Part shown: in pieces, positions 1 to 10,000 of the stretch
Numbering within the stretch: the first letter of the stretch is position 1
How the letters are laid out: each line of letters starts with the position of its first letter
Source of the DNA: Rheinheimera sp.
GTDB lineage: Bacteria > Pseudomonadota > Gammaproteobacteria > Enterobacterales > Alteromonadaceae
DNA length: 10,000 nucleotides
Direction: 5' to 3'
Assembly (NCBI RefSeq): GCF_020217005.1
Contig: NZ_JAIWOI010000312.1
Span: 1-10,000 of the forward strand
Program-made: the position numbers and the translations under genes
The notes under the pieces: model-generated
The model's input: the letters and a program-made list of their open reading frames with translations, nothing else
Databases searched by the model: none
What the model was told of the DNA's origin: nothing

Positions 1-1
1 A

Positions 2-667
2 CCTGTTAGCGGTCTGATGAAAAAGCTGGGTTACCAGTTTCAAAAGACCGCACTACTCGAACAAGCCCTGACTCACCGCAGTTGCAAAGGTGAGCACAAT
101 GAGCGGCTGGAATTTTTAGGCGACGCTCTGCTGAGCATGGTGATCGCTGAAGCCCTGTATCTGCACTTTCCTAAAGCCCGCGAAGGCGATTTAACCCGTA
201 TGCGCTCTTCCTTGGTCAAGGGTGTAACACTGGCTGAAATAGCCAAAGAACTGGAGCTGGCCGAGTATTTACGGCTTGGTCCGGGCGAGATGAAAAGCGG
301 TGGCTTACGCCGCGAATCTATTCAGGCTGACGCAGTAGAAGCCATTTTAGGTGCTATCTTCTTAGATGCTGGTATCGAAGCCTGCAAAGAGCGGATTTTA
401 AACTGGTATGGCAGTCGTTTAACCAGCATTCAGCCTGGCGTACAAAAAGACAGTAAAACCCAATTGCAGGAATACCTGCAAGGCAGGCGTTTACCTTTGC
501 CTTTGTACGAGGTGATCGACACGCAAGGCGATGACCACGACCAGGTCTTTACTGTGCGTTGTACTGTGCAGGGCAGAGCCCCTGTAATAGCGTCTGGCAA
601 TTCCAGACGTAAAGCTGAACAGGATTCAGCACGGATTTTGTTGGAACAAGTGAAAAATGACCTCTGA
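2..667 (+). CDS. rnc: Ribonuclease III (5' end outside the window)
   Basis: Double-strand-specific endoribonuclease that processes rRNA precursors and structured mRNAs as a homodimer. Numbering from the ATG at 17, the signature [10 protein letters not shown] is at 27-36. The metal-binding residues match E. coli E38, E41, D45, D114 and E117 as E29, E32, D36, D105 and E108. The C-terminal part (about 145-215) is the dsRNA-binding domain, ending in the SRRKAEQ helix. The ATG at 17 is probably not the true start. The frame stays open to the window edge, with PVSGL before MKKLGY. E. coli RNase III has about nine more N-terminal residues here, and no ribosome-binding site precedes position 17. The gene is therefore annotated as 5'-partial. 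Its last 11 bases overlap the start of era, which implies coupled translation. Identity is secure; only the start is uncertain. Confidence 0.96.
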
Positions 668-1553
668 GACTTTTGCCGGACTGGTTGCCATAGTTGGCCG
701 CCCAAATGTGGGTAAATCCACTTTATTAAACCAGCTGATTGGTCAGAAGGTGAGTATTACTTCGCGTAAACCACAGACGACGCGTCATCGTATCGTAGGT
801 ATAGATACTCAGGATAATTACCAGACTGTGTATGTCGATACCCCAGGTTTGCATATCGAAGAAAAACGCGCCATTAACCGCCTGATGAACAAAGCTGCAG
901 CCAGCACCATTCTGGACGTAGAACTGATTATTTTTGTGGTGGAAGGTACGCGCTGGACAGACGACGACCAAATGGTATTAAACCGTTTGATTGCAGCAAA
1001 AAAACCAGTGTTGCTGGTGGTCAATAAAGTCGATTTATACAAAGACAAGGAAGAGTTATTACCACATTTACAGTGGCTGAGCAGCCAGCTCGATTTCATG
1101 CAAATTGTGCCTTTGTCAGCAGAAAAGGGCACCAATGTGCAGGAGCTGCGGGCCTTGGTTCAAAAACAATTACCTCCTTGTGAGTTCTTTTTCCCTGAAG
1201 AATATGTCACGGACCGCAGCAGCCGTTTTATGGCGTCCGAGATAGTGCGGGAAAAGTTAATGCGTTTCCTTGGCGACGAATTACCTTACGCTGTGACTGT
1301 TGAAATCGAACGTTTTAAATGGGAAGAAAAACATTACCATATCGCTGCTTTAGTGTTGGTTGAACGCGACACACAAAAGCAAATGGTGATAGGTAAAAAA
1401 GGCGAACGTATTAAAACTATTGCCACAGAAGCCCGTAAAGATATGGAAACCTTGTTTGAACAGCCAGTGTTTTTACAAGTGTGGGTGAAAGTGAAATCAG
1501 GTTGGGCTGATGATGAGCGCGCCCTGCGCAGCTTAGGTTACGGCGAAGACTAA
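657..1553 (+). CDS. era: GTPase Era
   Basis: Essential Ras-like GTPase that binds the 3' end of 16S rRNA and acts in 30S subunit maturation at the membrane and cytoplasm. The 298 residues compare with 301 in E. coli. Visible motifs are G1 GRPNVGKS (14-21), the QTTR switch I (40-43), G3 DTPG (61-64), G4 NKVD (123-126) and G5 SAE (154-156). A C-terminal KH domain carries [12 protein letters not shown] (244-255). The end, [17 protein letters not shown], is nearly the same as in E. coli. The start overlaps the rnc stop by 11 bases, and the next gene begins one base after the stop, so it belongs to the rnc operon and is translated by coupling. Nothing is unusual. Confidence 0.98.
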
Positions 1554-1554
1554 A

Positions 1555-2235
1555 ATGGATAATCGCAGCTGGCCAGCTTTTATCCTGCACAGCCGCGCTT
1601 TTAAGGAACAGCAGTTGTTAGTGCAACTGCTGCTGCCTGAACTGGGGCGGGTCAGCGCTGTGATCCGCAAATCTAACAGTAAAAAACAACAACGTTTGTC
1701 ACTGCAGCCTTTTCAGCTATTACAGCTGGAACTGGTGGGGCGTTCTGATTTAAAAACTGTCAGTAAAGCCGAAGAAACAGGGCCTGCCTTTTTGCTGCAA
1801 GGAGAAAAGCTGTTTGGCGCCATGTATTTAAACGAGCTGATCTGCAGGCTCTGGCCTGAAAACGTCGGTTCTGATGCGCTATTCGATTTATACCAACAAA
1901 GCCTGCAGCAGTTGCTGACCGCAGAGCTTGAACCTTGTTTACGCCAGTTCGAATTCTCCCTGCTGACTGAGTTAGGCCAGCCTGTTGACTGGGGTTACGA
2001 TAGTGAAGGTGAGTCTTTGCAAGACGGCGCTTTGTACCAATGGTGGCCGGAGCAAGGCTGGCAAATTGCCGGCAAAGGCTGGAAAGGTGCAGTGCTTAAA
2101 GCCATAGGCCAACAGCAATGGCAGCAGCAGGATGTATTAAAGGCCGCCAAACAATTAAGCCGCTTATGGTTAGCGCCTTTGCTTGGCAGCAAACCTTTGA
2201 CCAGCAGAGCATTATTTCAATCGATCAGGAACTAG
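1555..2235 (+). CDS. recO: DNA repair protein RecO
   Basis: Recombination mediator of the RecFOR pathway. It binds ssDNA and SSB and, with RecR, loads RecA at gaps. The 226 residues fit the family. The N-terminal OB-fold region (about 5-78) has the expected [14 protein letters not shown] opening and GRV strand, followed by LQPF (50-53). The helical C-terminal region contains YLNEL (91-95), LRQFEFSLL (129-137) and LGSKPLTSR (210-218). As in E. coli, there is no cysteine zinc cluster. The start lies one base after the era stop with no strong Shine-Dalgarno sequence, so translation is probably coupled to era. RecO diverges fast, so the call rests on these motifs together with position in the operon. 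Confidence 0.95.
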
Positions 2236-2237
2236 TT

Positions 2238-2969
2238 ATGAGCGCCATTTATTTAGGTATCAATATCGATCACGTCGCTACTTTACGTCAGGCCCGTGGC
2301 ACTTATTATCCTGAACCTGTGCATGCCGCCTTATTGGCAGAGCAATTTGGTGCGGATGGCATTACCGTGCATTTACGTGAAGACCGCCGCCATATTCAGG
2401 ACCGGGATTTATTTGTGTTGCGCGAAACCATAGCCACCCGATTAAATTTTGAGATGGCTGTGACCGAAGAAATGTTGGGCATTGCAGCTCAGCTCAAACC
2501 TGAATTCTGTTGTTTAGTGCCGGAAAAACGCCAGGAACTGACCACAGAAGGTGGTTTAGAAGTGGCTGGCCAGTTCGAGAAAATTCAGGATGCTGTGCAT
2601 CGCCTGCAGCAGGACAATATTTTAGTCTCCTTGTTTATCGACGCTGATGAAAAACAAATAGCAGCGGCAGCCAAAGCCGGTGCGCCTTATATTGAAATTC
2701 ACACAGGCCAGTACGCTGAAGCGACAGATCCGAAACAGCAAAAAGCAGAACTGCAGCGTATCACTGAAGCTGCTGCTTATGCCGCTTCTTTGGGTTTAAC
2801 CGTCAATGCCGGTCATGGCTTGCATTACCACAATGTGCAGCCTATCGCTGCTATTCCCCAGATGTACGAGCTGAATATTGGCCATGCTATTGTGGCCCGC
2901 GCTATCTTCTCTGGTTTAGGCCCGGCAGTCGCTGAAATGAAACGCCTGATGGTCGAGGCGCGACGTTAA
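2238..2969 (+). CDS. pdxJ: Pyridoxine 5'-phosphate synthase PdxJ
   Basis: Condenses 1-deoxy-D-xylulose 5-phosphate with 3-amino-2-oxopropyl phosphate to form pyridoxine 5'-phosphate, the ring-closing step of DXP-dependent vitamin B6 synthesis. It is a TIM barrel, octameric in the family. From the ATG at 2238 the protein has 243 residues, the same length as E. coli PdxJ. The residues known to matter are in register: D11 in [10 protein letters not shown]45 and R50 in [10 protein letters not shown]72 in [10 protein letters not shown]153 in YIEIHTG and H193 in NAGHGL. A longer in-frame extension back to 2118 is rejected because it would run through the end of recO. AGGA at 2227-2230 is well placed for 2238. 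The stop overlaps the acpS start by one base. Confidence 0.98.
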
Positions 2970-3346
2970 TGGCCATTGTTGGTTTAGGCACCGACATAAT
3001 CGAAATAGCGCGCATAGAGCAGAGCCTGGCGCGCTCCCCCCGTTTAGTACAACGGGTATTGACTGACACCGAGCAGCAAATCTTAGCGGCTCATGGCCAG
3101 CCAGCCCGTTATTTCGCTAAACGTTTTGCCGCCAAAGAAGCCGCTGCCAAAGCGCTTGGCACCGGTATAGGCCGTGGTATTTCCTTTCAGCATTTTACGG
3201 TCAGCAACGACCCTTCAGGTCGGCCGCAACTTGAACTCACGGGTCCGGCGAAAGCATTAGCTGATTCAATGCAAGTGCGTTCTGTCTGGCTTTCGATTAG
3301 CGACGAACAGGCCTATGCCTGCGCTACTGTTATACTTGAATCTTAA
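2969..3346 (+). CDS. acpS: Holo-[acyl-carrier-protein] synthase AcpS
   Basis: Transfers the 4'-phosphopantetheine arm of CoA to a serine of acyl carrier protein, activating fatty acid synthesis. The protein has 125 residues (126 in E. coli). Magnesium-binding D9 lies in GLGTDIIEI, and E57 in the signature RFAAKEAAAKALGTG. The C-terminus DEQAYACATVILES is nearly the E. coli end. The ATG overlaps the pdxJ stop in a TAATG arrangement. It is the last gene of the operon. The final 63 bases are duplicated in diverged form at 4568-4630, beyond the next gene, which suggests an insertion or recombination event at the 3' end of acpS. Confidence 0.97.
   Translation: MAIVGLGTDIIEIARIEQSLARSPRLVQRVLTDTEQQILAAHGQPARYFAKRFAAKEAAAKALGTGIGRGISFQHFTVSNDPSGRPQLELTGPAKALADSMQVRSVWLSISDEQAYACATVILES
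3284..3346 (+). repeat. Direct repeat copy A: 3' end of acpS
   Basis: The last 63 bases of acpS, including its stop codon, match 4568-4630 at 55 of 63 positions with no gaps. This copy is part of the intact gene. Together the two copies bracket about 1.2 kb holding the lipoprotein gene, in the manner of a 3'-gene-end attachment duplication. Confidence 0.85.
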
Positions 3347-3403
3347 GCGCGTTCTAACGCTTTGATTGCCAAAGATAAGGTGAAAGTATAAGGTCAGTGG
3401 GCG

Positions 3404-3463
3404 CCACGAACTCTGGCCAGTCATCGCTTTCTATGCGGATGAATGACATGCTGAAATTCGTGG
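3404..3463. repeat. Long imperfect palindrome in the convergent acpS/lipoprotein gap
   Basis: CCACGAA at 3404-3410 is complementary to TTCGTGG at 3457-3463. GTCAT at 3420-3424 is complementary to ATGAC at 3443-3447. The two 9-base internal segments are symmetric and partly pairable, and CGC/GCG near the tip adds three pairs. The RNA from either strand could fold into one long stem. No U-tract follows on either strand, so it is not a classical intrinsic terminator. It may slow convergent transcription or be left over from an inserted element. Confidence 0.4.
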
Positions 3464-3492
3464 GCATCCCTCAGGACCTGCTCCAATATAGC

Positions 3493-4272
3493 TTAACTGG
3501 CGGTCCCGCTTACTTCGCCATTCAGATAGGCTTTGATTTGTTCACCCACACTAGTGAAGTAGTCAAGAATGCTCTGACGCACAGGTTCCATTTCTGACGC
3601 CGTGATATTCTGGAAATCTTTTGGGTCTTCGAAATCGTCCAGCATTTTATGCTTGGACTGATAATTAGACAGCTCAACCAGTTTAGGCATCAGCGTCAGG
3701 TCGACAGGCTGGTGAATGGTTTCAACACTGACGGCAAAAGCGGCAGAGCTGAAGTAGTTATCCATCCCCAAAAAGCTACGGGTAAACAGACCGTAGCCCT
3801 GGCTGTAATATTCGTTGCAGCCATAGTTGCCGCACTCGAGATAAGCCAGAGATGGGGTTTCAAATACGCTGATCACCACTTGGATCCCTTCTGCCAGCAA
3901 GCGTTTACGCAGCAAGTCCTGCTCCATCGTAAATTGCCAGTTTTTATCCCGAACTTCGACAAAGTTCAGCGGTTGCAATGGCATTCTATTCCATTTGCTC
4001 AGGTCGACCACTTCAAAGCGTTCAGGCCGCTCTAACTGAGCCTTTAGGGTGTCAAAAATGCTGTCCGACATCCGCCATTGATAGGGGTAACTGGTATTAA
4101 AGTTATTAAAAATGGTGGTGCCTATATGGCTGTGATTAACATTGTCACCAGCCACTACCAATACCCCAATTTTGGTTTTAGCAGGTAAATTCAGACTGGG
4201 TGTAGGCGGAACATAGGTACTGGCACACGCACTCAGCAGCAGGCTTAATGCCAGGGCAAACAAAACTTTCAT
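3493..4272 (-). CDS. Putative outer-membrane lipoprotein of unknown function
   Basis: I do not recognise the family. The 259-residue product begins with a lipoprotein signal peptide: K2, hydrophobic VLFALALSLLL (3-13), then lipobox LSAC with the lipidated cysteine at position 16. The residue after Cys is Ala, not Asp, so Lol sorting to the outer membrane is expected. The mature part starts with a Pro-rich linker, then KIGVLVVAGDNVNHSHIG (about 34-51), which resembles the first beta strand of a periplasmic globular domain, and ends with a hydrophilic helix. Two cysteines lie close together in ECGNYGC (146-152) and could form a disulfide. The start is supported by AAGGA on the minus strand (plus positions 4279-4283), six bases before the ATG. 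It is convergent with acpS and flanked by the acpS-tail repeats, so it may be an acquired gene. Confidence 0.85.
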   Translation of the reverse strand: MKVLFALALSLLLSACASTYVPPTPSLNLPAKTKIGVLVVAGDNVNHSHIGTTIFNNFNTSYPYQWRMSDSIFDTLKAQLERPERFEVVDLSKWNRMPLQPLNFVEVRDKNWQFTMEQDLLRKRLLAEGIQVVISVFETPSLAYLECGNYGCNEYYSQGYGLFTRSFLGMDNYFSSAAFAVSVETIHQPVDLTLMPKLVELSNYQSKHKMLDDFEDPKDFQNITASEMEPVRQSILDYFTSVGEQIKAYLNGEVSGTAS

Positions 4273-4325
4273 CGGCTGTCCTTAGTTAAAAAATCCAATG
4301 GTAATGAATGGGAAAAATTGTGCTG

Positions 4326-4345
4326 TTTATAGCAGTAAATTTACT
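4326..4345 (-). promoter_or_regulatory. Likely promoter and operator-like palindrome for the lipoprotein gene
   Basis: Reading the minus strand toward the lipoprotein gene, an extended -10 element TGC-TATAAA lies at 4334-4326. Immediately upstream is a perfect 12-bp palindrome, AGTAAATTTACT (4334-4345), within the spacer. An 8-bp inverted pair, AAAATTGT at 4314-4321 and ACAATTTT at 4354-4361, brackets both. No good -35 box is visible, which fits an extended -10 promoter or an activator- or repressor-controlled one. The assignment is from pattern only. Confidence 0.4.
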
Positions 4346-4567
4346 ATTTTTAAACAATTTTGTTTATGGGAGTATGCTTGCCCTTTGCGCCGCAGTTCAA
4401 CTTGTTGAAAACACGCTAAGGCATTAAAAGTTAGTCCTCATCTTGCTCACAACGTCAGTGCATACATCTGCCTCCAACATAATCAGCTTTTAGATAGCTC
4501 ACTCACAAAAATATAAACCTATTCACAGGAGCAAGATGCTGGACCAGTTTTGAGTTTTGGTTGATCA

Positions 4568-4630
4568 GTTTGGCTTTCGATTAGCGACGAACAGATCTAT
4601 GCCTGCGCTACTGTTATTCCCGAGTCCTAA
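4568..4630 (+). pseudogene. Truncated second copy of the acpS 3' end (direct repeat copy B)
   Basis: The 63 bases match acpS 3284-3346 without gaps and with 8 mismatches. In frame they still encode VWLSISDEQIYACATVIPES followed by a stop, differing from acpS only in A-to-I and L-to-P within this stretch. No upstream part of acpS is present, so this is a remnant, not a gene. The divergence suggests it came from a related genome or is an old duplication. It marks the right edge of the segment that carries the lipoprotein gene. Confidence 0.8.
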
Positions 4631-4664
4631 CCTTTAGCCTTCGTACTTGAAACTGGCGCTTTGC

Positions 4665-4686
4665 GGGCAGGGCTAAACCCGTGCCC
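4665..4686 (+). repeat. GC-rich hairpin downstream of the acpS remnant
   Basis: GGGCA (4665-4669) pairs with TGCCC (4682-4686), and GGG (4670-4672) pairs with CCC (4678-4680). The loop has five bases and one G (4681) is bulged, giving an eight-pair stem. The following bases are A-rich, not T-rich, on the plus strand, and no T-tract follows on the minus strand, so it is not an obvious intrinsic terminator. It could be a structural element of the leader RNA or of a former mobile element. Confidence 0.45.
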
Positions 4687-4803
4687 TAAACAACATAATA
4701 AAACTAGTCAAAAGCACAAACTCAGCGTTAGTATCGGGACAGGTAAAGTCATATTTGCCTGAACGGCTTAGTTATGTTGAGCCACGTGATGAGCTTATTT
4801 ATT

Positions 4804-4808
4804 AAGGA
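4804..4808 (+). promoter_or_regulatory. Ribosome binding site fixing the precursor 1 start
   Basis: AAGGA lies seven bases before the ATG at 4816. The longer in-frame start at 4774 has no such site, and its 14 extra residues are not found in the homologous second precursor, so 4816 is chosen. Confidence 0.75.
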
Positions 4809-4815
4809 AATTCAA

Positions 4816-5052
4816 ATGTCTACAGTGATCAGCTTATTGGAAAAAATCGGAAAGGACGCTAACTTACGTTATGCCGACAAAACTACAATGACAGAGCAGT
4901 TAGACCCTGCTTTAGCTGCCGCTATCCTGGCTGGATCTCAGGAGCAGTTAGCCGCTGTTTTAGGTGCGCGCACAAACGTCATCTGTGGCGTGCATGCCGC
5001 AGAAGAAGCTGACGAGCAAGAAGAAATTACCTCAATGTTCAAAGCAGGCTAA
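4816..5052 (+). CDS. Putative split-borosin RiPP precursor peptide 1
   Basis: This 78-residue peptide is probably the substrate of the alpha-N-methyltransferase encoded 66 bases downstream. The N-terminal part (1-48) is mostly helical in character: ISLLEKIGKDANLRYA, then DPALAAAILAGSQEQLAAVL. This resembles the leader or borosin-binding domain of SonA-type precursors. It is followed by LGARTNVICGV (49-59), a hydrophobic beta-branched stretch of the kind borosin enzymes methylate, and an acidic tail rich in Glu and Asp (63-70). The second peptide in this window repeats the same plan and is nearly identical at 49-59. The conserved block carries a single cysteine (C57). Which residues are methylated and where the core is released cannot be told from sequence. 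The borosin role is inferred from the neighbouring enzyme and the paralogue. A Nif11-like small protein would be the main alternative. Confidence 0.82.
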   Translation: MSTVISLLEKIGKDANLRYADKTTMTEQLDPALAAAILAGSQEQLAAVLGARTNVICGVHAAEEADEQEEITSMFKAG

Positions 5053-5067
5053 TTTCGTATCTGACAG

Positions 5068-5087
5068 CTGCCCTCGGGCAGAGTTTT
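5068..5087 (+). terminator. Possible attenuator hairpin between precursor 1 and the methyltransferase
   Basis: CTGCC (5068-5072) and GGCAG (5077-5081) form a GC-rich stem with a four-base CTCG loop, followed two bases later by TTTT (5084-5087). The stem and T-run are short, so read-through is expected. Such a leaky terminator would give more precursor mRNA than enzyme mRNA, a common arrangement in RiPP operons. Confidence 0.42.
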
Positions 5088-5107
5088 AACCTGTAGGTTG
5101 TGGCAGT

Positions 5108-5113
5108 AGGTGA
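5108..5113 (+). promoter_or_regulatory. Ribosome binding site fixing the methyltransferase start
   Basis: AGGTGA, a good match to the anti-Shine-Dalgarno complement, ends five bases before the ATG at 5119. A GTG at 5110 lies inside this site and so cannot be the start it serves. Confidence 0.7.
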
Positions 5114-5118
5114 AGTTC

Positions 5119-5907
5119 ATGCAAAAAGGTAGTTTAGTTTGTGTAGGCACAGGTATGACCTTGGGTTCTCATATCAGTCCTTTATGTCGTAGTTATATAG
5201 AACAAGCCGAGGTGGTATTTGTACTGGTCGCAGACGGTACTACTGAGCTGTGGATCCAGGGCATGAATGCCGATGTACGTAGCCTGCAACCTTATTACTG
5301 TGAAGGCCAGTCCAGGATGATCACCTATAAACAAATGGTGGCCGCTATGTTGGCTGAAGTGCGCCTTGGTAAAAAAGTCTGTGGTGCTTTTTACGGCCAT
5401 CCCGGTGTATTTGCCTGGGTGCCACATCAGGCGATAAAAGAGGCGATAGCAGAAGGTTATCAGGCCCATATGGAGCCAGGTATTTCAGCCGAAGACTGTT
5501 TATATGCTGATTTGGGCTTGGACCCCGGCACTTATGGTTGCCAGCATTATGAAGCCAGCAACCTGATGTTTTACCAGCGAACCATAGACACAGCGGCTTA
5601 TTTAATTTTATGGCAGATAGGAGTCGCAGGAGATAAATCACTGGCGAAATTCACCACAGGCGGCGCTTATCGCCAGGTTTTAGTGGAGTTGTTGAGTCAA
5701 TGGTATCCCTTGGATCATCAGGTAATTTTATACGAAGCTGTTACTTTGCCTATTCAGCAACCCCGTATCGAACGCATCACTTTATCTGATTTACCCAAAG
5801 CGCAAATGGATTTAAAAACCACTTTGGTGATACCGCCTGCCACTGTAGCCAAAGCCAATCAGCTGATTCTGGATAAGCTCAAAGTTGTGGTGGCACAGGA
5901 GCTTTAA
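5119..5907 (+). CDS. Borosin-type peptide backbone alpha-N-methyltransferase
   Basis: Predicted SAM-dependent enzyme that methylates backbone amides of a RiPP precursor, here supplied in trans. The 262 residues form a tetrapyrrole-methylase (TP_methylase) fold: GTGMTLGSH near the N-terminus (10-18), FYGHPGVF (91-98), MEPGISAEDCLYADLGLDP (118-136) and LILWQIG (162-168). The borosin hallmark region is present: QPYY (57-60), R66 and Y70 in SRMITYKQM, and Y92 in FYGHPG. These are counterparts of the catalytic Arg/Tyr set described for OphMA and SonM. Siroheme and cobalamin methylases do not have this Y-R-Y pattern. The protein ends at VVVAQEL with no C-terminal core, so it is the split form, unlike the fused fungal OphMA. 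Precursor 1 lies upstream, and a GNAT gene starts after one untranslated base. Confidence 0.9.
   Translation: MQKGSLVCVGTGMTLGSHISPLCRSYIEQAEVVFVLVADGTTELWIQGMNADVRSLQPYYCEGQSRMITYKQMVAAMLAEVRLGKKVCGAFYGHPGVFAWVPHQAIKEAIAEGYQAHMEPGISAEDCLYADLGLDPGTYGCQHYEASNLMFYQRTIDTAAYLILWQIGVAGDKSLAKFTTGGAYRQVLVELLSQWYPLDHQVILYEAVTLPIQQPRIERITLSDLPKAQMDLKTTLVIPPATVAKANQLILDKLKVVVAQEL
5897..5901 (+). promoter_or_regulatory. Ribosome binding site fixing the GNAT start
   Basis: AGGAG, inside the last codons of the methyltransferase gene, lies seven bases before the ATG at 5909. A longer frame from 5885 would overlap the methyltransferase gene and lacks a site, so 5909 is chosen. Confidence 0.7.
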
Positions 5908-5908
5908 A

Positions 5909-6421
5909 ATGGAAGAGCTGAAGCTGGAGGCTAATCCACAGCGGTTTCAGTTGCAAACCACAAGGCTTACTATTCGCCCTTTGGCTGACAGGGACAGGCT
6001 GATGTATTGCAGCTTGTATACAGATCCAGAGCTGATGCAGTTTATTGCTCCTGTGATGACGATGGAAAGCGCTCAGCATAGCTTTGATATCGCTGTACGC
6101 CTTAGCAAGCAACAGCCTTTTAAGCGGCTTTTTTTGGCGTTGTACCAACATAATCTAGCTGTAGGTATGGTGGGTTTAAGTGCAGTGAACCCGACACTGA
6201 AACAAGCGGAAATTGGCGTTCTGTTGGCTAAGACAGGGCGGGGGCAGGGCTTTGGTCAGGAAGCTCTGGATGCCGTTTGTCGCCTTTTTTTACAGCTAAA
6301 CCCTGAGTTTTTGCTCTATACAGACATAGACCCTGGCAATGCAGCGGCTCAGCATATGGTACTTCAGGTAGGTTTCAAACCTGATAGTCAAAACGACAGG
6401 CTATTTTGGCGTCAGAGCTAA
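5909..6421 (+). CDS. GNAT family N-acetyltransferase (RimJ/RimL-like)
   Basis: Predicted acetyl-CoA-dependent N-acetyltransferase of 170 residues. The opening TTRLTIRPLADRDRLMYCSL (17-36) is typical of the RimJ/RimL (Acetyltransf_3) branch. The acetyl-CoA pyrophosphate loop is GRGQGFGQEAL (110-120) after the EIGVLLAK strand. N144 in DPGNAAAQHMVLQVGFK (141-157) matches the family's conserved Asn before a GF motif. One base separates it from the methyltransferase stop, and AGGAG is in place, so the two are surely co-transcribed. It lies between the two precursor genes, so acetylation of the processed peptide, its leader or a lysine, or self-protection, are all possible. Its substrate cannot be read from sequence, and a housekeeping acetyltransferase caught between them is not excluded. 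Confidence 0.9.
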   Translation: MEELKLEANPQRFQLQTTRLTIRPLADRDRLMYCSLYTDPELMQFIAPVMTMESAQHSFDIAVRLSKQQPFKRLFLALYQHNLAVGMVGLSAVNPTLKQAEIGVLLAKTGRGQGFGQEALDAVCRLFLQLNPEFLLYTDIDPGNAAAQHMVLQVGFKPDSQNDRLFWRQS

Positions 6422-6447
6422 CGACGAGATTGGCAAGTGCCGAGAAA

Positions 6448-6477
6448 TTGTTGGGTCTTTATCTTTGAGTATATAAT
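6448..6477 (+). promoter_or_regulatory. Sigma-70-like promoter ahead of precursor 2
   Basis: A perfect TATAAT at 6472-6477 is preceded, at an 18-base spacing, by TTGTTG (6448-6453), a weak match to the -35 consensus. It would start transcription about 100 bases before the second precursor gene and could also drive the diguanylate cyclase gene. It implies that precursor 2 is expressed independently of the methyltransferase and GNAT genes. Confidence 0.6.
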
Positions 6478-6526
6478 CCTGAACCAAGCTTGTGCTTTTA
6501 ATTTTATCGTTTTAAGCTGCATTGGA

Positions 6527-6542
6527 GCTAAAAATATTTAGC
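6527..6542 (+). repeat. Inverted repeat in the precursor 2 leader
   Basis: GCTAAA (6527-6532), a four-base AATA loop and TTTAGC (6537-6542) form a perfect six-pair dyad between the predicted promoter and the ribosome binding site. It could be a protein-binding site or an mRNA hairpin. Being AT-rich, it is a weak structure. Confidence 0.4.
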
Positions 6543-6570
6543 AATATCATGAAATCAAATCATAAAAAAT

Positions 6571-6574
6571 GGAG
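6571..6574 (+). promoter_or_regulatory. Ribosome binding site fixing the precursor 2 start
   Basis: GGAG lies eight bases before the ATG at 6583. The alternative GTG at 6577 is only two bases away from the site. The ATG choice gives MSKIIRLLEK, which aligns without gap to MSTVISLLEK of precursor 1. Confidence 0.7.
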
Positions 6575-6582
6575 CTGTGCGC

Positions 6583-6852
6583 ATGTCGAAAATCATTCGT
6601 TTATTGGAAAAAATGGGCCAAAACTCAGAGTTTCGTTATGCAGATGCCGAGCATATTGCAAGCTTAATGGCTGATGCTGATCCAGCTTTGATTGATGCAG
6701 TGACTGCCGGTGACCAAAGCAAAATTGAGTTGCTATTAGGAGCCCGCACCAATGTTGTTTGTGGTATATATCCGGCTCAAGAACCCGATCAGGAAGAACC
6801 ATCTGAAGAAGAAAATGAAGATGGAAAAACTCATCAGAAAATAGCGGTTTAA
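6583..6852 (+). CDS. Putative split-borosin RiPP precursor peptide 2
   Basis: This 89-residue paralogue of the 78-residue precursor is encoded before the GNAT and methyltransferase genes' other flank. It keeps the LLEK-x-G start (7-12), FRYAD (17-21), the DPAL helix with a TAGDQ turn (33-45) and the block LGARTNVVCGI (52-62), which matches precursor 1 at 9 of 11 positions. The tail is longer and very acidic (EPDQEEPSEEENED, 67-80), with a basic end. Of the nine identical codons in the block, six differ synonymously, so the match reflects selection and not recent duplication. The downstream diguanylate cyclase gene begins 11 bases after the stop, and a TATAAT promoter lies upstream. It is likely modified in trans by the same methyltransferase; a regulatory or decoy role cannot be excluded. 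Confidence 0.8.
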   Translation: MSKIIRLLEKMGQNSEFRYADAEHIASLMADADPALIDAVTAGDQSKIELLLGARTNVVCGIYPAQEPDQEEPSEEENEDGKTHQKIAV

Positions 6853-6863
6853 AATTAGAATTA

Positions 6864-8618
6864 ATGTTCAATTCTAGTTGGGCTTTGCACCTAAATAAGT
6901 TTCTGATGTTTTGGAAGCTTATTCTGCTTCATTTTTTTTTGACTTTTGCTGTTTATGCGCAAGAGGCAACACAAGATCTCCTTGCTGCAGATCAGATTAA
7001 AAGTACGGACTTTGCTGAGTTTCAAAAAAATCTCAGTTTAATCGAGCAAAAATATTCAACACTTAGTGATCTTGAGGAAGACTATTTCCTATTGCTTCGT
7101 GCGTACGAGGCAGCCTATTCCGGTGATACAGCTAAGTCTATTGAGCTTACGTTACAACTTAACAACACCGGAGTTGACCAGACCATTGCATTCAGAGCAA
7201 AAGCACTAGCGATCAATAGTCTTGTTGTTAACCGGCGTTATTTGGAAGCCTTTACTTATCTGGAACAAATTATTAATCAGGTTAGTAAAATCGAGCAGCC
7301 TTTGGCCCGGGAGCAAGGTTTATTAGTTACAGCGATGATGTACAGATATGTAGAACGTTATGAGCAAACCATAGAATATACAGAACAAATAGAGGGCGAG
7401 AAGTTAAGAGAAACAGCAATCTGTGCGGCTAAACAACTACGTTTGGATGCCTTAAGTAGTGCGGGAATGACCGAACGTTTTCTTCAAGAGCTGGATTCTG
7501 GATTAGATTATTGTGAGCGAAGGGGCGAGATTCTGTGGGCCAATCTTATTCGAACTTATAAAGGAAAATATTTGCTCAAAACCGGTGAATGGCAAAAAGC
7601 CAAAGATTTTATGTCGCAGTACCGGGAGCAAGCTGTTTCTAGTTTGTATCCGCGACTTATAGCCGAATTCGATATTATTTTGGCCGAGGCCAATTATGCT
7701 TTAGGGCACCTTAATGAAGCGAGGGATTATGCCAGTCGTGTCATAGCAAGTAGAGCTGGAGACAATGTAATTTTCCCCAAAGTGACAGCATTAAAAATCC
7801 TCTTCCAGCTTGAAAAAGATAATGCTAACTACCAGCAGGCTCTTGATTATCATGAACAATATACAGCGGCCTTTACTGCTTACATGGACGATAAGTCAGC
7901 ACAGCAGATGGCGTACCATACGGCCCATTCAGAAATTCTGGCGCAAAATCAAAAGATAGCTTTGCTGGATAAAGACAATCAATTGTTACAGTTAGCGCAA
8001 GAAAAACTGAAGCATCAGGCTACCTCAAATCAATTGCTCATTGTCGCGTTGGCCATGCTGGTATTGGGTCTGGCGCTCATGGCCTATCGTAGTCTGCAAG
8101 CCCGCCAGCGTTTTAAAGCCCTGGCCGAATACGATGACTTAACGGCTATCAGCAACAGGTACCATTTTTCAGTTTCAGCCAAAGACGCTTTAAACTTGTG
8201 CCAAAAAGGTCAGCTACCGGCCGCTCTTATAGTGTTTGATTTGGACCACTTTAAACAAATTAACGATCAATATGGTCATGCAGCAGGTGATTGGGCATTA
8301 CGCCAAACTGTGGATACCTGTCGTAATTTTATGCGTAACAACGATGTATTTGGCCGAATTGGTGGTGAAGAATTCGCTATTTTATTACCAGGTTGTCAGA
8401 GCGATAAGGCGCATTTACTGGCCGATATATGTCGGGATGCCATCAAAAATATTGATACAGCAGCGTCTGGCTACGAGTTTAAATTAACTGCCAGTTTTGG
8501 TGTTACTTCAGCAGAACTTTCTGGTTATCATTTAACCAAACTGATTGAAGATGCAGACACTGCAATGTATCAGGCAAAACAGCAGGGGCGGAATAAAGTC
8601 CAGTTTTTTCAGGGCTGA
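6864..8618 (+). CDS. Membrane diguanylate cyclase with periplasmic TPR-like sensor region
   Basis: Predicted to make cyclic di-GMP from two GTP in the cytoplasm in response to a periplasmic signal. The 584 residues begin with a signal peptide (hydrophobic LILLHFFLTFAV at 19-30, probable cleavage after VYA at 32). A long helical, TPR-like region follows (about 40-345), then a coiled coil (about 350-388), one membrane helix (391-408) and a GGDEF domain (about 420-584). The active-site motif is GGEEF (500-504). The I-site RNND (491-494) lies exactly five residues upstream, so product inhibition is expected. The FDLDHFKQIND metal and substrate motif is at 458-468. No EAL domain is present. The start is uncertain: the ATG at 6864 has no clear ribosome binding site, and the ATG at 6906 would give a more compact signal peptide. 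It is probably co-transcribed with precursor 2. Confidence 0.93.
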   Translation: MFNSSWALHLNKFLMFWKLILLHFFLTFAVYAQEATQDLLAADQIKSTDFAEFQKNLSLIEQKYSTLSDLEEDYFLLLRAYEAAYSGDTAKSIELTLQLNNTGVDQTIAFRAKALAINSLVVNRRYLEAFTYLEQIINQVSKIEQPLAREQGLLVTAMMYRYVERYEQTIEYTEQIEGEKLRETAICAAKQLRLDALSSAGMTERFLQELDSGLDYCERRGEILWANLIRTYKGKYLLKTGEWQKAKDFMSQYREQAVSSLYPRLIAEFDIILAEANYALGHLNEARDYASRVIASRAGDNVIFPKVTALKILFQLEKDNANYQQALDYHEQYTAAFTAYMDDKSAQQMAYHTAHSEILAQNQKIALLDKDNQLLQLAQEKLKHQATSNQLLIVALAMLVLGLALMAYRSLQARQRFKALAEYDDLTAISNRYHFSVSAKDALNLCQKGQLPAALIVFDLDHFKQINDQYGHAAGDWALRQTVDTCRNFMRNNDVFGRIGGEEFAILLPGCQSDKAHLLADICRDAIKNIDTAASGYEFKLTASFGVTSAELSGYHLTKLIEDADTAMYQAKQQGRNKVQFFQG

Positions 8619-8620
8619 GT

Positions 8621-8684
8621 CTATTCGCAGGCCGCAACTGCTGTTGATTAGCTCTGCTGAAGAAAGCTCAGGATTAACGAATAG
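8621..8684. repeat. Widely spaced inverted repeat between the cyclase and TonB-like genes
   Basis: CTATTCG (8621-8627) is exactly complementary to CGAATAG (8678-8684), and the second arm runs into the GGGAG ribosome binding site of the next gene. If the leader folds this way the site could be partly masked. The 50-base loop makes this weak, and no T-run is present, so it is not a terminator. Confidence 0.3.
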
Positions 8685-8688
8685 GGAG
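8684..8688 (+). promoter_or_regulatory. Ribosome binding site fixing a TTG start
   Basis: GGGAG lies five bases before the TTG at 8694. The nearby ATG at 8689 is in another frame and stops after two codons. The next in-frame ATG is at codon 69, past the membrane anchor, so TTG is the only start that keeps the hydrophobic N-terminus. Confidence 0.65.
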
Positions 8689-8693
8689 ATGCT

Positions 8694-9950
8694 TTGAAAG
8701 CATTTTTGTGGTCTTTGTGTCTGCACATTGTGCTGATAGGTTTGCTGACCTATCATCATTTTGTGCCTACTGACGCCGCAAAAATTAAACCTGAACCCCC
8801 TATTCTGGCTTATGCATATCAGCCGATAAAAGCTGTGAAAGCGGCGCCAGTGCAACCACAGCAAGAGGTAACAAAGGCAGAACAGGTTATAGTGCCACCA
8901 ATGCCTGCCAAAATACCAAATCAACAAGCTCCAGCCAAAACGCCAGTAAAAAAGCCCCAAAAGAAAAACACAACTCAAAAAGCTAAACCTAAATCCAATC
9001 TAAAACCAACAAAAGCCAAGGTAGCTCAGCCCAAAAAGAAGCCTTTTGTACCAGTGCGTAAACCCGCTATGGTTAAAACACCGCCAGTAGTACCAGCGCC
9101 TAAGCCGTTGCCGGTACCGAAAGTAGCTGACGTGGTTGCTGCTAAGCCGTTGCCGGTACCGAAAGCAGCTGACGTGGTTGCTGCTAAGCCGTTGCCGGTA
9201 CCGAAAGTAGCTGACGTGGTTGCTGCTAAGCCGTTGCCTGCGCCGAAAGCGGCTGAAGTGGTCGCTACTAAGCCGTTGCCGGTACCGAAAGCAGCTGAAG
9301 TGGTCGCTGCAAAGCCGTTGCCGGTACCGAAAGCGGCTGAAGTGGTTGCTGCTAAGCCGTTGCCGGTACCGAAAGCGGCTGAAGTGGTCGCAGCTAAGCC
9401 GTTGCCGGTACCGAAAGCGGCTGAAGTGGTCGCTGCAAAGCCCCTGCCTGCAGCTAAAGTCGCTGACCCGGTGGCGGCTAAGCCTGTGCCCGAAGCTGCA
9501 AAAGCAAAAGTTGAAAATCCGGCTGCAGAACCTCAGGTTGTGCAGAGAGAGCTTCAAAACGGAGCACTACAATCTGCCAGGAAACAAGACTCAGCTGATC
9601 AGCTTTCAAGGCTTTTGCAGAAGGATAAAAGTATGGCAAACAAAGCCCTGCAGTCCGCTAAGCAGGGCGATGCTTCAGGTTCCGGCAGTTGGAAAGAGAA
9701 ACAAAAACAGTTGGCTCTGGAAATTACAGCTCAGAAGGCTGAACCAAAGCCGGAGACTGGGCGCAAGGTGAAAGACTTTGCCGATGGCAGTATGTTGATC
9801 GATACCAACCCAGGTTGCTGGAAAGTCCCTCCAGCAGGCTCCAGCAAAGACTCTATCTGGTTATCAACCAGTGTTCCCTGTAAAGCCGATACCACAGTTG
9901 AGCAAATAGACGCCATTTTGAACAAACGCCGGAGTTACAGCAGGGACTAG
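8694..9950 (+). CDS. TonB/TolA-like membrane-anchored protein with Pro/Lys/Ala repeats and a novel C-terminal domain
   Basis: This 418-residue protein begins with a short cytoplasmic end and one membrane helix, FLWSLCLHIVLIGLLTY (4-20). The Ser and His in SLCLH (7-11) recall the TonB/TolA anchor that contacts ExbB-ExbD or TolQ-TolR. A Pro/Lys/Gln-rich stretch (30-135) and nine tandem 14-residue units of the type KPLPVPKAAEVVAA (137-262) could span the periplasm as an extended rod. A polar helical part follows (280-350), then a short final domain (about 357-418) with C375 and C396, probably disulfide-linked, and no TonB_C or TolA_C motif that I recognise. The start is TTG, supported by GGGAG. 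Its partner and function are unknown; no ExbBD-like gene is in the window. A TonB-like energy transducer is the leading guess; a plain periplasm-spanning tether is the alternative. Confidence 0.85.
   Translation: MKAFLWSLCLHIVLIGLLTYHHFVPTDAAKIKPEPPILAYAYQPIKAVKAAPVQPQQEVTKAEQVIVPPMPAKIPNQQAPAKTPVKKPQKKNTTQKAKPKSNLKPTKAKVAQPKKKPFVPVRKPAMVKTPPVVPAPKPLPVPKVADVVAAKPLPVPKAADVVAAKPLPVPKVADVVAAKPLPAPKAAEVVATKPLPVPKAAEVVAAKPLPVPKAAEVVAAKPLPVPKAAEVVAAKPLPVPKAAEVVAAKPLPAAKVADPVAAKPVPEAAKAKVENPAAEPQVVQRELQNGALQSARKQDSADQLSRLLQKDKSMANKALQSAKQGDASGSGSWKEKQKQLALEITAQKAEPKPETGRKVKDFADGSMLIDTNPGCWKVPPAGSSKDSIWLSTSVPCKADTTVEQIDAILNKRRSYSRD
9102..9479 (+). repeat. Tandem 42-bp repeat, nine units, in frame
   Basis: Exactly nine 42-base units encode nine 14-residue units. 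Seven carry the palindrome CGGTACCG; units 4 and 9 do not, having PAPK or PAAK in place of PVPK. Units 1-3 read AD, units 4-8 read AE, and unit 9 is degenerate, followed by a further partial unit. The near identity of units 5-8 points to recent expansion by slippage or unequal exchange, so copy number may vary among strains. Confidence 0.93.
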
Positions 9951-10000
9951 TAAAGCAGAGTGGGATCTTCTGCAGAATAGCCACAGTCAGATGAAGAGTT

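Follow-up and report, generated by a model that had tools for sequence, protein, structure and literature searches.

A split borosin locus of Rheinheimera sp. with a precursor gene beside a TPR-GGDEF receptor gene, and its possible role in signalling

What is the product of a split borosin locus for, when the gene behind its precursor encodes a predicted membrane-bound diguanylate cyclase? The question is raised by a stretch of 10,000 nucleotides (nt) from Rheinheimera sp. (contig NZ_JAIWOI010000312.1, positions 1 to 10,000; here called the window), taken from a host genome of 3.9 Mb. Its open reading frames (ORFs) and family matches give the gene order precursor A1, methyltransferase, GNAT, precursor A2 and diguanylate cyclase, with all five genes on the + strand, and confirm the genes named by a first-pass annotation made from the letters alone. 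By homology, A1, A2 and the enzyme almost certainly belong to the type IV-like class of split borosins, and we somewhat favour the reading that the product of this pathway is a signal, namely an N-methylated peptide acting on the linked tetratricopeptide repeat (TPR) receptor. The locus has the following features (AF2, AlphaFold 2; aa, amino acids):

4816-5052, + strand: precursor A1, 78 aa, with SonA-type leader, hydrophobic core segment and acidic tail; the receptor gene is not directly behind it
4960-4995, + strand: predicted core segment of A1, LGARTNVICGVH, residues 49-60, placed by alignment from its position relative to SonA
5119-5907, + strand: borosin alpha-N-methyltransferase by homology, related to SonM (phmmer 284 bits to SonM; PF00590, 59.9 bits)
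5909-6421, + strand: GNAT acetyltransferase, fast-diverging (PF13302, 64.9 bits), 1 nt past the methyltransferase stop codon
6583-6852, + strand: precursor A2, 89 aa, with the receptor gene next downstream
6736-6774, + strand: predicted core segment of A2, LGARTNVVCGIYP, residues 52-64, placed in the same way
6864-8618, + strand: TPR-GGDEF membrane receptor (diguanylate cyclase; PF00990, 148 bits), 11 nt past the A2 stop codon
6960-7898, + strand: TPR sensor domain, aa 33-345, predicted to be periplasmic; hypervariable among congeners, with C187 and C217 invariant
8025-8093, + strand: second transmembrane helix, about aa 388-410, from hydropathy and AF2
8124-8615, + strand: GGDEF domain, aa 421-584, its GGEEF signature intact, with 95% mean identity over 12 window-type loci

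Judged by homology, the methyltransferase is a borosin METHYLTRANSFERASE of the SonM type. A phmmer search of Protein Data Bank (PDB) sequences returned 25 matches at E <= 0.001, with SonM first (E 1e-83), and all 25 are named SonM, OphA/OphM or MroM-type peptide N-methyltransferases (the MroMA entries being, we presume, borosins), so that comparison with characterised enzymes bears out the annotated enzyme type. Of 253 residues aligned with SonM, 137 are identical (54%). The annotated FYGHPGVF motif and Y/R/Y catalytic pattern are both present, Y60, R66 and Y70 (numbered from ATG 5119) aligning to SonM Y58, R67 and Y71; these three and Y92 are invariant across 26 relatives. SonM residues Y58, R67, Y71, Y93, F99, E146 and W166 are kept, and Q178 is replaced by K; roles for these residues are described in PMC8429565, apart from Y93, which was compared by alignment only. 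The enzyme is thus a discrete alpha-N-methyltransferase with the catalytic tyrosines and arginine of a split borosin. It also matches the general fold family PF00590, but two NCBIfam models of other methylases scored 37 of 525 and 15 of 391 bits, far under their cut-offs; no function-specific siroheme or cobalamin methylase cut-off was reached, and the nearest solved relatives are borosin-type. Among the four PF00590 proteins of the host genome, one other is a second borosin enzyme (63% identity), at a locus designated L054. GTG 5110 is an unlikely start for the methyltransferase, because a stop codon stands just ahead of the ATG matching 5119 in 4/4 relatives checked.

For the precursors, single queries with A1 or A2 gave no match in the PDB, whereas a profile of 56 such peptides (46/70 locus precursors, the two of the window and eight database hits, excluding peptides that had uncertain starts or lacked the hydrophobic-cysteine core type) matched the SonA chains at E 1.4e-4 to 3.2e-4 over positions 1-56, with nothing else in the PDB below E 0.4. 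This family-level match agrees with the annotated separate precursor acting in trans as in SonA/SonM. In the AF2 model of A2, with a mean pLDDT of 65, residues 3-52 contain five helices and no regular structure follows; a Foldseek search with it gave eight hits, the top six being SonA, at a non-significant E of 2.5-6.6. Behind the leader, roughly where SonA has its methylated residues, lies the hydrophobic segment LGARTNV(V/I)CG, the predicted core, assigned by position only. The first-pass annotation had taken LGARTNVICGV for the end of the peptide, but it corresponds to A1 residues 49-59 and is followed by 19 more residues, many of them acidic. The locus therefore has the separate precursor, borosin-binding domain and C-terminal core of a split borosin, the core by position only, and the backbone of the peptide is probably methylated by the enzyme. 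A1 has another in-frame ATG at 4774, although homologs favour the start at 4816, and it is optional, being present in 4/12 window-type loci (window counted). At another locus, a candidate precursor with a repeated GGDKDEEEIR unit (L147:9550-9780) is possibly a multi-core precursor.

The receptor was modelled by AF2 with a mean pLDDT of 92.8. Two hydrophobic helices flank the TPR domain in hydropathy and AF2 analyses, and the protein is predicted to be membrane-bound with the TPR domain outside the cytoplasm. TPR families were recognised in some relatives of the window receptor (the receptor alignment held 49/70 plus the window), and the shape of the sensor model resembles the TPR superhelix of the Rap/NprR peptide-pheromone receptors.

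We collected 121 loci, a redundant set made up of the window, 40 stretches from related genomes and 80 named loci; the last are the best 80 of at least 585 candidates from a profile led by the window enzyme, and over-represent its relatives. A sensor homolog (11 sensor queries) was found within 5 kb of the enzyme in 117/121 loci, and of the four others, two have contigs that break off at the enzyme (L117, L154) and two have a TPR-histidine kinase just downstream (L071, L074). After clustering the enzymes at 90% and retaining the longest locus, the 81 non-redundant loci comprised 79 with a TPR-GGDEF and two with a TPR-histidine kinase receptor. In a set of 60 genomes, own genome included, the enzyme was present in 34 and the sensor region of the window receptor in 30, all inside those 34, with none in the 26 genomes that lack the enzyme; 40/42 sensor places were within 3 kb of an enzyme gene (exceptions G030 and G041). 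The sensor was unmatched in four enzyme-bearing genomes. In three of these the locus does contain a TPR receptor (L067, L071, L074); in the fourth, G032, the neighbourhood was outside the comparison. In a class sample of 369 genomes the enzyme was found in 10 and the sensor in four, all among the 10 (0/359 genomes without enzyme); here TPR-histidine kinases with receiver domains also occur (L158, L159), in L159 directly behind a peptide that is SonA-like by eye. These co-occurrence counts are inflated by shared ancestry. The partner genes had been annotated as an unfamiliar set, and are present as described, but the diguanylate cyclase turned out to be the most constant partner found, or is replaced by a TPR-histidine kinase, while A1 is optional. 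Two distant borosin-type enzymes of the class sample (L160, L162) have, by eye, an adjoining transporter-like gene and no GGDEF or sensor match; other borosin branches may have other partners.

Within these loci the gene immediately before the receptor gene is usually a precursor gene. A small ORF with acidic tail, ending no more than 220 nt before or 45 nt after the point where the sensor match begins (for other ORFs, their own start), was found beside 112/125 receptor ORFs in the redundant set versus 22/530 other long ORFs of the same loci; eight further sensor places fall outside the 125, having no complete GGDEF ORF by the filter. Of the 13/125 receptor ORFs without a precursor by the strict filter, three have one farther upstream (L058, L101, L152), and at the histidine-kinase locus L074 no small precursor ORF was seen. 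Two precursor-receptor pairs are present in nine loci (L083, L093, L099, L100, L103, L121, L133, L138 and L156), with a single enzyme annotated in all but L156, and 12 of their 18 pairs have the same nearest relative elsewhere by precursor and by sensor. Over 103 unique pairs, precursor distance correlated with that of the sensor at r 0.79, of the enzyme at 0.73 and of the GGDEF domain at 0.70; the partial correlation between precursor and sensor was 0.50 given the enzyme and 0.57 given the GGDEF domain, compared with 0.26 between precursor and GGDEF domain given the enzyme (permutation p 0.001 each).

The same genes were also compared among the window-type congeners. While Era, PdxJ and AcpS have a mean pairwise amino-acid identity of 0.97-0.99 (11 loci), and over 12 window-type loci the enzyme and GGDEF domain both have 0.95, the means are 0.60 for the sensor, 0.70 for A2 and 0.60 for GNAT (local segments), and the window sensor has an identity of 0.51 to the other window-type sensors. 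The variable block extends from GNAT through the sensor and ends ahead of the GGDEF domain, divergence dropping sharply inside the receptor gene from 0.44 (residues 291-340) to 0.06 (residues 341-385). Divergence at four-fold sites was 0.31-0.40 for era, pdxJ, acpS and the enzyme gene, 0.51 for GNAT and 0.55 for A2, and within the receptor gene 0.58-0.69 for the sensor and 0.41-0.53 for the remainder; such raised values indicate that the block is older or imported, and has not merely undergone faster protein change. Precursor and sensor distances correlated at 0.965 on whole reading frames (Mantel p 0.0001; 0.90 on local BLAST segments) and at 0.96 with enzyme or GGDEF distance removed, compared with precursor correlations of 0.37 for GGDEF, 0.36 for the enzyme and 0.34 for PdxJ; these tests used 11 of the 12 loci, since L040 lacks era, pdxJ and acpS. 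Precursor and sensor trees have identical topology, although support is weak at several nodes of the precursor tree. Sensor and precursor data both rejected the tree built from era, pdxJ, acpS and enzyme (approximately unbiased (AU) test, 2.4e-68 and 1.8e-9), and the housekeeping data rejected the sensor tree (AU 5.1e-36). The GGDEF-domain tree was also rejected by the sensor data, yet has some groups in common with the sensor tree (L041 with L044 and L045), and the GNAT tree departs from the sensor tree in the placement of L036 and L037. Outside the window clade, in 105 pairs with enzyme identity >= 0.85, the contrast is weaker (enzyme 0.89, GGDEF 0.75, sensor 0.58, precursor 0.55). Between species, a hypervariable peptide and sensor are thus linked to a constant output domain, with the predicted core as the part that varies least.

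With regard to the surroundings of these genes, three terminator-like sites were found on the + strand, all intragenic (5659 in the methyltransferase gene, 6914 and 7680 in the GGDEF gene), and the window scan gave none between GNAT and A2; on both strands together there were six, against 4.2 expected. The 3' end of acpS (3281-3346) is duplicated 1284 nt downstream at 4565-4630 (66 nt, 86%), and the duplicates flank a lipoprotein gene (3493-4272, - strand) without match in 10/11 congeneric stretches; L040 has a 94% match, located elsewhere, at the far edge of its stretch. This arrangement looks like an insertion. Downstream of the receptor gene, a TolA-like protein (8694-9950), which differs strongly in length and sequence among congeners, contains a 42-bp tandem repeat at 9100-9442 (about eight copies); its gene was considered as part of the system and rejected, with homologs in 11/11 window-type congeners and at none of the other collected loci.

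The first-pass annotation saw no protease, which is correct for the window, whereas the host genome does contain one gene for a pepsin-like aspartic peptidase (PF00026, 55.9 bits). It is the second gene upstream of the second borosin methyltransferase, in a locus (L054) with the order peptidase, GNAT, enzyme, precursor, TPR-GGDEF and LysE-type transporter. The peptidase shewasin A, likewise pepsin-like, was reportedly found by Lee in 2024 to cut a borosin precursor. PF00026 was present in 8/60 genomes, all enzyme-bearing and in seven within 5 kb of the enzyme, and in 5/369 genomes of the class sample, three of them without enzyme. As a general processing enzyme of the window-type locus it was rejected, being at most optional given its distribution among the congeners, but in the host genome the L054 peptidase could serve the window locus in trans. 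The LysE-type transporter gene (L054:4771-5415) lies behind the receptor gene, with homologs in the same place in L059 and L060, and is a possible exporter. Upstream of the L060 methyltransferase there are small open frames only, compared with a peptidase gene in L054 and L059, and the genome G002 has no PF00026; the L060 peptidase gene is probably broken.

A signalling pathway consistent with these observations would start with binding of the five-helix leader of A1 or A2 by the methyltransferase, which would N-methylate backbone amides in the hydrophobic segment past the leader, both steps by homology to SonM/SonA. A peptidase would then release a C-terminal piece, and GNAT may modify the peptide. 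The piece would get to the periplasm or a neighbouring cell, and there it would bind the TPR domain of the receptor encoded right behind the precursor and alter its diguanylate cyclase activity, a step suggested by the linkage, the co-inheritance of the cassette and the fold similarity; in some other lineages the output would be through a histidine kinase in place of GGDEF.

Several observations weigh against such a signal. In the window clade the precursor varies least in its core (divergence 0.18, versus 0.27 for the leader and 0.52 for the tail), which also has the lowest correlation with the sensor (r 0.52, versus 0.79 and 0.94). Over the 103 pairs, with the enzyme controlled for, core and sensor had a partial correlation of 0.12 (p 0.004), compared with 0.51 for the leader. 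The core as a hypervariable ligand was therefore rejected; the specificity of any peptide ligand would lie in the tail more than in the core, or the association reflects mere linkage, and exchange of adjacent genes as one block would yield such a correlation without contact. PF00026 is absent from 10/11 window-type congeners (present in G012), no exporter gene was seen beside the window locus, and no signal peptide was seen by eye in the precursors. Against the sensor model, eukaryotic TPR proteins give scores similar to those of the pheromone receptors. Finally, six of the 10 class-sample enzymes (L160-L165, divergent) had no tblastn GGDEF or sensor match in their stretches, where other TPR receptors were not sought, which indicates that only some members of the borosin family have the receptor link.

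The conserved core beside a varying sensor would also fit an ordinary borosin natural-product cluster, with a peptide aimed at an outside target and a TPR receptor that senses something else and times the use of the cluster or of export; biosynthetic clusters often contain regulators, and here two different receptor output types occupy the same place. We consider this unlikely, as it is the precursor gene, and not the cluster, with which the receptor is paired: both genes recur in the second pairs, and inheritance is shared by precursor and sensor but not by the enzyme. That leader and tail track the sensor more than the core does, with no protease or exporter gene seen in the window, would be expected if the precursor, methylated or not, were an uncut protein partner holding or regulating the receptor. 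This is rather improbable, since by homology the leader has another job in methyltransferase binding, and no export signal was seen in the precursors while the co-varying part of the sensor is predicted to be periplasmic. It is more improbable still that a recombination hot spot or mobile cassette carries GNAT, precursor and sensor together without functional connection: the block does run from GNAT to the sensor and stops ahead of the GGDEF domain, and linkage by itself would produce matching trees, but the pairing persists in Rheinheimera, the Shewanella-like locus, Rhodanobacter, Dyella, Lysobacter and others with differing gene orders, four loci have histidine-kinase output, and sensors are confined to enzyme-bearing genomes in both genome sets. 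A methylase acting on a small molecule (siroheme, cobalamin or related) beside unrelated small peptides is scarcely credible, despite the PF00590 assignment and source names of homologs that include precorrin methylase, given the 25 borosin-type PDB matches, the low NCBIfam scores and the SonA-type peptides adjoining the enzyme.

Among known peptide-receptor systems, the RRNPP receptors (Rap, NprR) share with the window receptor a TPR superhelix of similar shape, and their peptide genes adjoin the receptor genes, much as in the window pairing. RRNPP receptors are however cytoplasmic, whereas the window receptor is predicted from hydropathy and AF2 to be membrane-bound with its TPR domain outside the cytoplasm, and has GGDEF or histidine kinase output; it is not a cytoplasmic receptor of an imported linear peptide by this prediction. 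In ComQXPA and Agr, the linked modifying enzyme, peptide and receptor sensor half are all hypervariable and the output half is constant; the protein families differ from those of the window, where it is GNAT that varies among the enzymes, the methyltransferase being constant, and the window-type differences lie between species, with one genome each. The closest characterised system is that of Shewanella oneidensis SonM/SonA, which, according to PMC8429565, likewise has a separate methyltransferase and a precursor with borosin-binding domain, and whose catalytic residues are kept in the window enzyme. The window locus differs by its two precursors and a GNAT, and A1 and A2 by their own core, a long acidic tail and the lack of a significant SonA match when searched singly. 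In L067, where the named homologs of the receptor are from Shewanella, SonM- and SonA-like genes are followed by a TPR-GGDEF gene, while the terms diguanylate and di-GMP are absent from the main text of PMC8429565. The legend of Figure 1 in PMC11395268 labels a GGDEF-containing protein in borosin types, which shows that some borosin-GGDEF association is already known. A description of the precursor-receptor unit or of cassette exchange was not found in a search of an open-licence collection of papers.

As a more tentative generalisation, to which we give clearly less than even weight, the type IV-like split borosins may form a Gram-negative signalling system, in which a backbone-N-methylated peptide acts on an extracytoplasmic, Rap-like TPR receptor with cyclic di-GMP (c-di-GMP) or phosphorelay output, and the GNAT-precursor-sensor cassette passes from species to species in the manner of pherotypes. 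The precursor-linked receptor gives borosin peptides a concrete, testable role, in that they may be signals. If this is true, it would represent a class of pheromones with backbone N-methylation, which could aid the passage of the peptide through membranes, and would connect a peptide directly to c-di-GMP in Gram-negative bacteria.

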